Source: Actinomycetota bacterium (GTDB taxonomy: Bacteria > Actinomycetota > Geothermincolia > Geothermincolales > RBG-13-55-18). From it: a stretch of 64,000 bases of DNA. The first letter of the stretch is position 1, and each line of letters starts with the position of its first letter. Both the position numbers and the translations under genes were made by a program. The DNA lies in contig JACIXD010000002.1 in the NCBI GenBank assembly GCA_014360645.1, positions 248,001 through 312,000 of the forward strand, in the 5' to 3' direction. The notes under the pieces are model-generated. The model was not told where the DNA came from. It saw only the letters and a program-made list of their open reading frames with translations, and did no database searches. Positions 58,891-64,000 of this stretch are shown here, piece by piece.

Positions 58891-60393
58891 ATGGACCAGA
58901 GGCTGAAGAACCTCGATTACGTGTTCAACCCCCGCTCCATCGCCTTCATCGGCGCCACGGAGAGCATGCGCAAATGGGGCTTTCTCATACTCAACAACCT
59001 GCTCACGGGGGGATACGAGGGCGAAGTGTACCCGGTGAACCCCAACCGCGATACCATTCTCGGGCTGCCCTCCTATCCCTCCGTGCGAGAGATACCCGGA
59101 GAGATCGACCTCGCGGTGTTCACCGTCCCCGCCCGCCAGGTCCTGAGCTCACTGGACGAGTGCATCGCCAGGGGAGTCAAGGCCGGCCTGGTGATAACCG
59201 CGGGCTTCAAGGAGCTGGGCGAGGAGGGCGCGGCGGCGGAGGCGGAGATGGTGAGGAGGGCACGCGAGGCGGGCATGGTGCTGGTGGGTCCCAACTGCCA
59301 GGGTATCTGCTGCCCCAAAAACAGGCTCTATTCCTGGATGCCCATCCTCTTCCACCCCCATCCCGGAAAGATCGGTTACGTGGCCCAGAGCGGAAACATC
59401 CTCAACATGCTCATCGGCCACGCCGTCAACGCGGGCCTGGGTGTATCCAAGGCCGTCTCCAGCGGGAACGAGGCCGATATATCCACCGAGGAATACTATT
59501 CCTATCTCGCCGAGGACCCCGACACCGAGGTCATCGTCTCCTATATCGAGGGCGTTCCCGACGGGCGGCGTTTCCTGGAATATTCCCGGGCGGTGACGGC
59601 ACGCAAGCCGGTGGTGGTGCTCAAGGGCGGCCGCACCAGCGCGGGGGTGTCGGCGGCCAGGTCCCATACCGGGGCCATGGCGGTGAGCGAGAGGCTCTTC
59701 GAGGCAGCGTGCCGTCAGGCGGGGATAACCCTCACCTACTCCATCGTGGAAGCGGGAGTGACCGCCGCGGCTTTCGTCAACCGTCCCCTGCCGCGCGGCA
59801 GGCGGGTGGGCATCATCACCGGAGGCGGGGGATTGGGGGTCATCGCCTCGGACTTCTGCACCGAGATCGGCCTTGAGGTGGCCACGCTCTCCGGGGATAC
59901 CCTGAAAAAACTCGAGGAGCTGCTCCCCGACTGGTGGGTCCCCGGGAACCCGGTGGACCTGGTGGCCGGGCTGGACTTCACCGTGCTCAAGCCGGTGATC
60001 GAGATACTGATGAAGAGCGGAGAGGTGGACGCGGTGATGTTCCTGTGGATCGGGGCTCCCCGCAGGCGGGGGGAGGCCGCCACGTTGAAGGGAGACCGAG
60101 GGATGGACATCTCCGGCATCTGGAGAATGATGGACCAGCATTTCGTCAGCTTCTCCCGGGAGCTCTACGGCTTGATGCACGAGCTGCAGGTGCCTCTGTA
60201 CATCGCCACCACCATAGAGATGAGCGAGGACGGGGACGGGGAAGGAGAAGATGGCGACTGCCTACCCCTGGTCTTCCGCGACGTGGAGTCCACATGCCGC
60301 GCGGTCAGCGCCATGGCCGACTACCGCTCCTATCTCGATGGGGTCAGCCCCGGACATGGGACAAAACCCAGTGCAAGTAGCAGGGCGCGATGA
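58891..60393 (+). CDS. Acyl-CoA synthetase, NDP-forming (CoA-binding/alpha-type)
   Basis: A 500-residue protein of the ADP-forming acetyl-CoA synthetase/succinyl-CoA ligase-like superfamily. Residues 1-130 are the CoA-binding domain (YVFNPRSIAFIGATESMRKWGFLILNNLL, YPVNPNRDTILGLPSYPSV). VGPNCQGICCPKNRL and IGYVAQSGNILNML follow, then ARSHTGAMA with the expected phosphohistidine. The ligase flavodoxin-like domain is GRRVGIITGGGGLGVIASD ... PGNPVDLVAG. It has no ATP-grasp domain, so it needs a separate beta subunit, which is not in the window. The start at 58891 is preceded by AAGGAG. The 3' end adjoins mobile-element debris. Confidence 0.85.
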   Translation: MDQRLKNLDYVFNPRSIAFIGATESMRKWGFLILNNLLTGGYEGEVYPVNPNRDTILGLPSYPSVREIPGEIDLAVFTVPARQVLSSLDECIARGVKAGLVITAGFKELGEEGAAAEAEMVRRAREAGMVLVGPNCQGICCPKNRLYSWMPILFHPHPGKIGYVAQSGNILNMLIGHAVNAGLGVSKAVSSGNEADISTEEYYSYLAEDPDTEVIVSYIEGVPDGRRFLEYSRAVTARKPVVVLKGGRTSAGVSAARSHTGAMAVSERLFEAACRQAGITLTYSIVEAGVTAAAFVNRPLPRGRRVGIITGGGGLGVIASDFCTEIGLEVATLSGDTLKKLEELLPDWWVPGNPVDLVAGLDFTVLKPVIEILMKSGEVDAVMFLWIGAPRRRGEAATLKGDRGMDISGIWRMMDQHFVSFSRELYGLMHELQVPLYIATTIEMSEDGDGEGEDGDCLPLVFRDVESTCRAVSAMADYRSYLDGVSPGHGTKPSASSRAR

Positions 60394-60399
60394 GGAGGC

Positions 60400-60803
60400 G
60401 CCGGGGAAACCATCGAGAAAAGACCCTCCACGGTCAAGATCGAGATAGACAGGGAAGCGCACTTCGCGGTCTTATCGGAGAACTCGTCCGCTGCGAGCAA
60501 CTTGGCCGGGGTATCCGAGGGATGCGGCAGCTCCCGCTCCAGCGCCCGCTTGTCGATCTCCTTTACCGTCTTCCGATCCAGGCCGTATTGCTCCGCTATG
60601 GCCTTGAGGGAGCGGGTCTTGCGGCAGGACAGCGCCACCTCCGCCGCCAGCCTCTTGGCGTAGGTGGCCCAGAGATCGCAGAAGGGGAGTTCCTCCCTCA
60701 CCACCCCGCAGCGCGGGCAGTCCACCCTCACCTTGGGGAAGGCAAGCCAAGAGTGTCGGTAGGAGCCGAAGGGCAGGTCTCTTACTATGCGCCAGGAGTA
60801 GTC
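60400..60803 (-). mobile_element. ISL3-family transposase remnant
   Basis: The minus strand encodes the N-terminal zinc-ribbon/HTH part of an ISL3-type transposase: SWRIVRDLPFGSYRHSWLAFPKVRVDCPRCGVVREELPF, then AEQYGLDRKTVKEIDKRALERELP and AADEFSD (first DDE Asp region). A frameshift then moves to a second frame with FPVYLDLDRGGSFLDG, the next catalytic-Asp stretch. The C-terminal half is absent. No terminal inverted repeats were recognised. It abuts the restriction/helicase fragment at about 60805. Confidence 0.65.
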
Positions 60804-60806
60804 ATA

Positions 60807-61235
60807 ATGGGGTCGCTGGCGGGAAAAGAGATCTTCCTTCTGCGCAACTTAAGCCGGGGAAAAGGCGTGAGTTTCTTTGAGGGGTGCCGCTTCTACCCCG
60901 ATTTTATCCTGTGGATTGTGGATGGAAAAAAACAACGCATCGTGTTCATTGAACCGCACGGCATGTTGCACGCCAAAGCCTACCGCGAAGACGAGAAGGC
61001 GCAACTTTGGGAACATCTGCCCGAGCTGGGAAAAGAAATAGGGCAAAGAAGCGACCGACAGGACATTGAGCTCGATTCATTCATCATCTCGGCTACGCCC
61101 TACGAGGACCTGTACAAACGTTACGATGATGGTAATTGGGACCGGGAGAGATTTGCTAAACATCATATCTTGTTCCCGGAACGGAACCAGGGCTACGACT
61201 ATCTCTGTAATATTTTTCAAGAACATGAGCAATAA
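60807..61235 (+). pseudogene. C-terminal fragment of a type III-like restriction/helicase (Res) protein
   Basis: About 143 codons matching the nuclease end of DEAD/DEAH helicase-restriction proteins: EIFLLRNLSRGKGVSFFEGCRFYPDFILWIVDG, then RIVFIEPHGMLHAKAY, ISATPYEDLYKRYDDG and HILFPERN. FYPDF and IEPHG occupy the PD-(D/E)xK positions, with His where Lys is expected. The helicase and N-terminal portions are missing; the fragment begins at the ISL3 remnant junction. Base composition is clearly more AT-rich than the ribosomal region, suggesting transfer. Confidence 0.6.
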
Positions 61236-61319
61236 ACATGAAATCCGGTATGCAAAGGAGCACTTTCAGGGATAGCTTCAATAAATCTGTGCCCGTATAT
61301 CCGGCCATCCTATCCCCGC

Positions 61320-61565
61320 ACCGAATTATTGCTGAGGCCTCGAAGTCTCCTCTGCTGCAGCTTCTCCTTCTCGAACCTGATTATGAGATAGAGCACGGAG
61401 ATGAGGCTATCCTCCGAGGAGAGCGCCTAGATGACCTTGCATCTCCTCTTCACTTCCTCGTTGGTCCTCTTAAGCTGGTCGGCGGCGTAGATGTAGGGAA
61501 GCACCTTTTATGGTATTTCATGAACACGGTCAGGGGAGAGAGGTTCTCCCGCCAATGCTTGACCA
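61320..61565 (-). mobile_element. IS256-family transposase C-terminal remnant
   Basis: Two minus-strand frames give KHWRENLSPLTVFMKYHKR, then after a frameshift near 61497 LPYIYAADQLKRTNEEVKRRCKVI, an in-frame TAG, and ALSSEDSLISVLYLIIRFEKEKLQQRRLRGL. This is the YTTNxIERxNxExKRR end of IS256/Mutator transposases. It has a frameshift, a nonsense codon and no N-terminal part. The surrounding 61236-61661 shows no other gene. Confidence 0.65.
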
Positions 61566-61661
61566 GGCCTGGGCAGCGCCTTTTCCTTGCCGGGCTAACC
61601 CACGGAGCCGGGCGTCGTGAAGCAAATGGCCGCCCCCGAACCCGGGGGCGGCACCGGTCTT

Positions 61662-63233
61662 TTACAGCCCCATACAAGTAAAAGCTACTCCTGTAGATGT
61701 ATGCATGCCTGTCCAACCGGGGCCATAGGAGAAAGCCATAACCCTTTCTGAACAGTTCGCGGCGGCGATGGCGATGTCGGTATGGGGGAACTGGTTATTG
61801 ACTCGCCACACGCATGCCTCCCACCTACGTTCTCCTTCTCGCGCCTCCCAATACACAGGGATGAGTTGCTCAGCCCCGGGCAAGTAACAATCGTAGACGA
61901 CGATGGTTCTTTCAGAAGAAGTTTTATTAGAATCCAAAGTAGTACAGACCATCCACATGGTAAAGCCGTCCCCAGTGTGCCCTTCAGCGTACTTGGCTGC
62001 AGAATATGTCCTTCCCACCACTCTACCCGCATATATATCGTCTTCAGCGCGCTGACCGAAGCTCACCGAGCCCCCGCTGATAGTCTCGGGGTTGGAAGGC
62101 TCGCGGAACTCAAACTCCATATAGACGGGCCGTTCCACGAGAATAGGGAGGCTTGCGTCCTTGGCGCGCACCCAGAAGCAGGAGGGCTCGCGGCTTGGCC
62201 CAGGAAGCAGGTGGGGGTAATAGATGGTGGTCCTCTGCAGGGGCGGCAGGACACGCTCCTGTGCCACCAACCCCTCCTTAGTGCATACGGAGATGGTCAC
62301 CGGAGCAGGGGCGGGGTTGGGGTTCTGCAAACACACCCAGGTGTCCCCCCACCCCATGCCGGGCACGAACTTTACCGGGGCAAAGGCGAACCCCACCTCG
62401 TTCGCGGTGGCTCCCCTGGCCCCCACCATCACGTGCCCTCCGGCCCATACTCTGCCGGGACGAGCGGGGTTCACGCTGCGGTAGGCGAAGTACATTGGGC
62501 GCTCGGCCGCCACCGGCACGTCGGAGACCAGCTCCAGAGAGACATCCTTCCCCTTCCCCACGTGGTCGGGGACGTAAAAGGTCGCCCGATGTTTCGGCGA
62601 CACGCTTTCCCGCACCGTCTTGAGCCCTTCTCCCTCCACCATGTAATTAAAGGTGAGAGAGGCGGTCTTTTGGTTGGGGTTAAACACGCATATCCACTCA
62701 TCAAACCCGTCGCGGGTAGTGCCCTCGGCGAAGTAGAGCTTGTGCGGGAGGGGGTCTGCCATGGGCGAGGCCACGTGCCCGCCTTCCCAAGGCTCGTGGC
62801 CTCCCGTCCCGGTATAGGAGAAATACATGGGACGCTCGGCAGAGAACTTTCGCGCAAGAGCGCGCAGCTAAACATCCGGCGCTTCTTCGGCAAGTTCCCG
62901 ACAGCTCACCCCTACACGGAAAGACACGTCCTTTTCAGGCCCCACCACGCCGTTCACGTTCACAGTAGCGCGGTTGAAGCCGGGGACTACATATTTCTCC
63001 GTGAGCAACACCCCGTGGTTGGATACATAGTCTACCCTCACATCACAAGCGCATCCGGTGACGTTGACAAAAGTAAGCCACGTGTGGAAACCCTCCCGTG
63101 TACAGCCCTCCGCGAAGTAAATGAACGCCTCCTCCGGAGCGGGCGTGGCTCCCGGAGCGGGCGTGGCTCCTACTACCATCAACGCCGCCAACAGCAACGC
63201 CGCAACAGTCCTCACAAACACCCCCGCCGTCAT
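61662..63233 (-). pseudogene. Secreted YFAEG-repeat surface protein interrupted by an amber codon
   Basis: One frame runs from a signal peptide at 63233 (MTAGVFVRTVAALLLAALMVV) to the stop at 61662, broken only by TAG at 62868-62870. About 523 codons hold four related domains of roughly 110 residues each. They are marked FIYFAEGCTREGFHTWLTFVN, LYFAEGTTRDGFDEWICVFNPN, GMGWGDTWVCLQNPN and KYAEGHTGDGFTMWMV, most ending in (A/V)ERPxYxxY. Such repeats are found in secreted or surface proteins of deep actinobacteria; function unknown. Sequence on both sides of the TAG aligns with the domain pattern (SCRELAEEAPDV-stop-LRALARKFSAERPMYFSY), so the stop is secondary, a sequencing error, or read through. 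Confidence 0.75.
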
Positions 63234-63253
63234 GTCTCCTACACCTCCCTTGT

Positions 63254-63643
63254 TCAGTTCTCCTGTGGAGAAAAGAACCGGAACACCGCAGTGTCTCTCT
63301 CCTCCCCACAGTCCTCCTTGCCCTCATCCGATACCTGGTCGAGAAAGTCTTTGAATGCATCCAAGGCCTTGGAAATGCTCTCCTCAGGCACTCCACGTTC
63401 AGCGAGCATATCTCGAAGCATTTCTTCCACCACCAACTCGGTAAGCACAGCCTGTTCTACCGCCTCCCGCAACCGCGCGGAGAACACGGCGCTGCCATCA
63501 TCAGCGCTTTCCCAGATGTTGAACACAACATCCGAAGCGCAACCCTCAAACGGGGGCACCCCCACCACAAGCACTCGGGACAAACCTAAACGCTCTCGCA
63601 GGTGACGAACCGCCTTATGCGCATCGCGTCGGCCAAAGGCCAT
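63254..63643 (-). CDS. Hypothetical protein
   Basis: A 129-residue protein starting MAFGRRDAHKAVRHLRERLGLSRVLVVGVPPFEGCASDVVF, with an acidic, helical C-terminal half (LTELVVEEMLRDMLAERGVPEESISKALDAFKDFLDQV). I do not recognise a family and no membrane segment is evident. AGAGG lies seven bases before ATG 63643. The readable frame extends upstream through the CRISPR-like repeats, but that stretch has no protein-like character. It ends 20 nt before the surface-protein gene and could be its operon partner. Confidence 0.6.
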   Translation of the reverse strand: MAFGRRDAHKAVRHLRERLGLSRVLVVGVPPFEGCASDVVFNIWESADDGSAVFSARLREAVEQAVLTELVVEEMLRDMLAERGVPEESISKALDAFKDFLDQVSDEGKEDCGEERDTAVFRFFSPQEN

Positions 63644-63657
63644 GCCTCCACCTCTTC

Positions 63658-63772
63658 GTTTCAATCTCTTTATCGGAGATCTTTCTTTTTTTCTTAGAGG
63701 TGAATCATGGACGCCATAGTGATGAAAATAGCCTTGTTTCAATCTCCTGATCGGAGATTTTTCTTTTTCTAC
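63658..63772 (+). CRISPR. CRISPR-like relic: two 37-nt repeats, one 41-nt spacer
   Basis: Repeat 1 (63658-63694) and repeat 2 (63736-63772) both start GTTTCAATCTC, contain ATCGGAGAT and end in a T-rich run. They differ at about four to six positions. Repeat 2 contains the inverted pair AATCTCC/GGAGATT. The period is 78 nt (37 + 41). GTTTCAATC starts and such palindromes are common in CRISPR repeats. No third repeat and no cas gene lie in the window. Confidence 0.55.
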
Positions 63773-63789
63773 GCTTCACGGATTTTACC

Positions 63790-64000
63790 TCATTTTAAAA
63801 GGTATTTTGAGCGAAATCGCGACGATCCAAGGTCAATGCCCATGATCGCATCTCTATTTTTCCGCTGTAATCTGGTCCTCTTGAGGCGGCGGGCGTACAG
63901 GCGGTCCCTGCGTACACAAAGCTCGTCTTCTATGAGCAACTCCAGAAACTCGCGGCAGGAAAGATCGGCCCGCTCCGCCTCGAGCAGCCGCGCGGAGAGG
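63790..64000 (-). mobile_element. IS21 helper ATPase IstB remnant (window edge)
   Basis: The minus strand from the right edge reads LSARLLEAERADLSCREFLELLIEDELCVRRDRLYARRLKRTRLQRKN, resembling the N-terminal domain of IstB. It then degenerates and stops at TGA 63790-63792 instead of continuing to the AAA+ ATPase domain (about 250 residues in complete proteins). It may start beyond the window. Read as a truncated element. Confidence 0.5.

Follow-up and report, generated by a model that had tools for sequence, protein, structure and literature searches.

The window analyzed here is a 64,000-nucleotide stretch of contig C2 (G000:C2:248001-312000) in a genome of 3.38 Mb and 34 contigs. Close to its right end are two 37-nt repeats, set 78 nt apart from start to start and separated by one 41-nt spacer; this arrangement, its boundaries included, is as described in an earlier note on the same DNA. 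The repeats and spacer are bordered on one side by a copy of a CRISPR leader, which adjoins a truncated istB gene of an IS21 element, and on the other by a 129-aa ORFan (Table 1).

Table 1. Features at and around the two-repeat locus (positions are those of the window unless a contig is given)
Feature	Position	Strand	Remarks
Truncated IS21 istB, N-terminal part only	63872..64000, on to about C2:312059	-	Boundary good to a few bases
Leader copy	63773..63871	-	91/99 positions identical to the leader of the main array on contig C12
Leader-proximal repeat	63736..63772	-	37 nt; matches the main-array repeat at 36/37 positions; hairpin retained; minus-strand end ATTGAAAC
Single spacer	63695..63735	-	41 nt; between the two repeats
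Leader-distal (terminal) repeat	63658..63694	-	Degenerate; 30/37 identical to the main-array repeat
129-aa ORFan	63254..63643	-	Start codon ATG lies 14 nt beyond the terminal repeat, with AGGTGGAGG shortly ahead of it

The two repeats agree with each other at 31 of 37 positions, a divergence that had been pointed out before, and the internal palindrome reported at the same time folds as a hairpin in each of them. The hairpin of the right repeat has 7 bp and a folding energy of -9.4 kcal/mol, identical to that of the canonical repeat from the main array of this genome, while the left repeat forms a weaker hairpin of 6 bp (-4.3 kcal/mol). Folding of the whole 115-nt element was no better than that of shuffled sequences (z = -0.90), and an Rfam scan of window positions 60000-64000 returned no matches. 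When the canonical repeat was compared without gaps with both strands of the window, the two repeats scored 36/37 and 30/37 and no place elsewhere scored above 21/37; thus, the repeat pair is not due to chance. As the locus holds one spacer and not several different ones, it was filed as an array remnant rather than a full array.

The main array lies on contig C12 (C12:252-2475); its 30 repeats are identical, and its 29 spacers measure 36 to 42 nt, a range that includes the length of the window spacer. To the right of it are cas2, cas1, cas6, and a CARF-HEPN csx1, followed by cas10/csm1, csm2, csm3, csm4, csm5, and the gene for a CARF_DUF2103 protein. Most of these genes match their family profile over nearly the whole length, and the Cas10 frame holds one GGDD motif; the locus (G000:C12:1-20000) is a type III-A system. 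Within the genome, at E values up to 0.001, the repeat was matched only at the window locus and in the C12 array, and a genome search with the repeat and leader of the window gave 93% identity to C12 over 136 nt (E = 9.2e-54). The earlier note had proposed a search of this kind for the repeat and for cas genes, and had held that a dispersed motif without spacers, in a genome with no CRISPR locus, would speak against an array; instead, the repeat recurs in an array of 30 units that adjoins cas genes of type III-A. Judged by its sequence, the element in the window is a true CRISPR remnant.

A second CRISPR system is located on contig C7 (G000:C7:34000-53000), where a Cas4-Cas1 fusion, Cas3g, Cas5/6g, and Cas7g match type I-G models and the array has at least 40 repeats. 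The repeat of this array differs in sequence from that in the window. A Cas1 family search of the genome identified two genes, one on C12 and one on C7, with none on C2, and Pfam searches revealed no cas families among eight ORFs near the window array, in agreement with the remark in the earlier note that cas genes were not visible. Contig C2 continues for 4.0 kb beyond the right side of the window array before it ends, and C12 for 251 bases beyond the left side of the main array. As both contigs end near the arrays, the true distance between the two is not fixed, and although on different contigs they could even be neighbors.

The leader homology lies to the right of the repeats, which sets the minus strand as the reading direction of the array. 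On this strand the repeats end in ATTGAAAC, and ATTGAAA(N) at the 3' end of a repeat is named in PMC4869251 as an indicator of direction. The array itself had been recognized in the earlier note, but the homologous leader, which fixes the direction, had been missed. The leader homology is shortened, stopping at position 63871, and the leaders of the related genomes G006 and G013 resemble that in the window only in parts (alignment assessed by eye). A scan for sigma-70 promoters found none in the leader of the window array and none in that of the main array, where the one hit starts inside the array; leader-driven transcription thus receives no support from the scan.

Beyond the istB fragment lies istA, of which the C-terminal part alone was seen as one long open frame. 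The IstB fragment and the Mu-transposase C-terminal domain (the IstA part) both exceed the Pfam cut-offs, so that an IS21 remnant does adjoin the array, as had been noted from the sequence. A second IS21 copy, on contig C5, is 69% identical, and its istB extends approximately 80 codons past the end point of the window copy before its own frame breaks (40 of 124 candidates were scored in the search for copies, and further ones may exist). Since the C5 copy carries istB past that point, the junction in the window lies inside istB, a position that suggests a deletion or rearrangement and not an insertion that ends cleanly. Such an event at position 63871 probably removed the rest.

Relative to the canonical repeat, 1 of 37 positions is changed in the right repeat and 7 of 37 are changed in the left. 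Both repeats have a T at repeat position 16, where each of the 30 main-array repeats has an A; as this shared substitution does not occur in the main array, both window repeats descend from one local repeat that had already diverged. Mutations accumulate at the leader-distal end of arrays (PMC4869251), and the greater divergence of the left repeat is this usual terminal decay. Most likely, a once longer array lost internal units via recombination between repeats. Shrinkage of this kind is not distinguishable from duplication of the leader-end part alone, and one local spacer acquisition followed by decay is another possible history.

Very probably, the locus is a CRISPR array that belongs to the resident type III-A system, has shrunk, and lies apart from the cas genes. 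The first option in the earlier note, a dead or dying array end belonging to a system elsewhere, is supported by the repeat, the cas genes, and the leader match on C12. Under this reading, positions 63658-63871 would hold a diverged copy of the leader end of the main array, read on the minus strand, from which a leader-proximal repeat, one spacer, and a degenerate terminal repeat remain. Repeat recombination would have taken the internal units, and deletion or rearrangement at the istB junction the rest. If the array is transcribed, cleavage in both repeats by the C12-encoded Cas6 could supply the Csm complex with one crRNA. The window array is either a relic or a working memory of minimal size, and not a new kind of element.

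In repeat, leader, spacer length, and orientation to the leader, the window array is like the type III-A (Csm) array on C12. However, the latter has 30 repeats and adjacent cas genes, whereas the former has two repeats, one spacer, and a leader homology that is cut short, and no nearby cas genes were identified. Isolated arrays (PMC5294841) and remote arrays (PMC12814883) are likewise described with cas genes elsewhere in the genome, and compared with these the window array is at the minimal size. A substantial number of type III-A arrays are placed more than 2500 bp from the cas locus in PMC12814883, where the term "orphan" is reserved for genomes without any cas locus; as the present genome has cas loci, the window array is not an orphan in that sense. 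According to PMC5294841, isolated cas loci or isolated CRISPRs occur in a significant number of genomes, 28% of the cas loci of type III are isolated, and an isolated CRISPR may either be nonfunctional or operate together with a cas locus far away. Biologically, the window array is an ordinary and familiar sort of relic that fits these known isolated and remote arrays. Its value lies in the fact that a two-repeat candidate could be proved genuine once its leader and repeat had been matched to those of an array that is linked to cas genes within the same genome.

It is rather unlikely that the locus is a secondary array that still works fully, keeping its leader and gaining spacers via the Cas1-Cas2 encoded on C12, a reading that overlaps with that of a shrunken array. 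The 99-nt leader copy and nearly canonical leader-proximal repeat would be consistent with continued activity, as would the presence of cas1, cas2, and cas6 on C12, but the array has a single spacer and a decayed terminal repeat, and the leader homology gives way to the IS21 remnant at 63871.

With up to three mismatches allowed, the spacer was found only at its own position, both in its own genome and across 15 family genomes (its own included), and each half of the spacer also matched only itself in its own genome. A local blastn search of the spacer against stretches of its own genome gave nothing longer than 11 nt beyond the spacer itself. Three exact spacer patterns (30, 20, and 20 nt) had no matches in viral contigs. 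A search against phages and plasmids, which the earlier note had recommended, yielded no protospacer in 7 phage and 18 plasmid records, with pieces of 19 to 23 nt only (E values of 3 to 9). As a control, the whole main array was compared with four phage records and gave one 26-nt match (E = 0.7). This single weak match indicates that the phage collection is uninformative for this host, and the absence of a spacer match therefore says little.

In base pattern the downstream ORFan resembles coding sequence, with GC contents of 0.68, 0.40, and 0.62 at the three codon positions. Its Pfam matches were all below the curated cut-off. No relatives were identified in 58 related genomes (its own left out) or in phage, plasmid, viral, and GTDB searches, and among 395 genomes of the phylum (its own left out, and partly the same genomes as the 58) there was one marginal match, covering 65 residues of a 422-aa frame (E = 3.2e-4). 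That the leader and array act as a regulatory element, forming the 5' leader of this ORF with a Cas6 cut in the terminal repeat controlling the mRNA, is improbable. The ORF lies on the same strand, starts 14 nt past the array, and looks coding, and PMC5294841 refers to orphan arrays whose spacers lie antisense to self genes and for which a link to regulation has been suggested. Against this, the lack of relatives in the 58 genomes and the one marginal match in the 395 leave no conserved link demonstrable, the sigma-70 scan found no promoter in the leader, and the spacer has no self-match within three mismatches. Apart from where the ORF lies, no positive evidence speaks for the suggestion in the earlier note of a hairpin regulatory element before a hypothetical gene. 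Slightly more doubtful again is a specific form of this idea, in which the leader and last repeat have been co-opted as a Cas6-cleaved 5' untranslated region, so that a transcript from the leader would run through the mini-array into the ORFan and the Cas6 cut in the degenerate repeat would leave the mRNA with an 8-nt crRNA handle; if true, a host gene would be coupled to CRISPR activity.

CreTA is a self-regulating mini-array, with a short array and a degenerate repeat beside a small ORF, and mini-arrays of this type have been described with type I systems. The window array is similarly short, has a degenerate repeat, and adjoins a small ORF. Unlike CreTA, it belongs with a resident system of type III-A, and its spacer has no self-match within three mismatches. 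A CreTA-like spacer would partly match a promoter or gene of its own genome, and no such match was found at that tolerance for the full spacer or its halves, although weaker pairing is possible.

Off-target integration of a spacer into a site resembling the repeat, creating an ectopic array, would account for a single spacer between two repeats, which is the least that one integration produces, but such an event would not bring a leader copy along, and a leader copy adjoins this array; this origin is very improbable. A chance or dispersed hairpin repeat that is not CRISPR at all deserves next to no credence: the element is short, with two repeats only, and on the plus strand its repeat looks like a terminator, having a hairpin with a T-run, yet the main-array repeat looks alike on that strand and the same repeat forms the 30-unit array beside the cas genes, occurring nowhere else in the genome at E values up to 0.001.

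To place the array among relatives, 59 genomes (its own included) were searched with the leader-proximal repeat and leader. Matches were obtained in three genomes, namely, its own, G006, and G013; the two other members of the genus had none, and no comparable mini-array was seen in the other members of the set by this search. A degenerate pattern of the repeat had no matches in GTDB contigs, even though the G006 repeat fits the pattern, indicating that, by its make-up or its omissions, the collection fails to cover this clade. A two-repeat locus in G006 (G006:C3:80206-80317) was considered as an independent parallel and was rejected, as its spacer and flank also occur at the trailer end of the G006 main array. 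The trailer end of the type III-like array in G006 is present on two contigs, C3 and C25, with the same last spacer and flank, and only two repeats are kept on C3. The C3 locus may be a duplication, a strain variant, or an assembly artifact.

Other repeated sequences were observed in the surroundings of the window array. A stretch of approximately 30 nt at window positions 60337-60367 matches at least 33 other places in the genome among the candidates scored (40 of 174). Twelve of these matches form six opposite-strand pairs about 180 to 415 nt apart, an arrangement like that of the two ends of a small element of mobile or REP type. A fragment with the helix-turn-helix of an ISL3-type transposase occurs at window positions 60330-60731 on the minus strand, and contig C2 ends inside a frame (L010 7497-7813) that appears ISL3-like by eye. 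The array and IS21 remnant are flanked by two similar minus-strand genes, at window positions 61662-62828 and L010 5481-7172. Short stretches of DNA in these two genes are 70 to 88% identical, perhaps reflecting an old local duplication.
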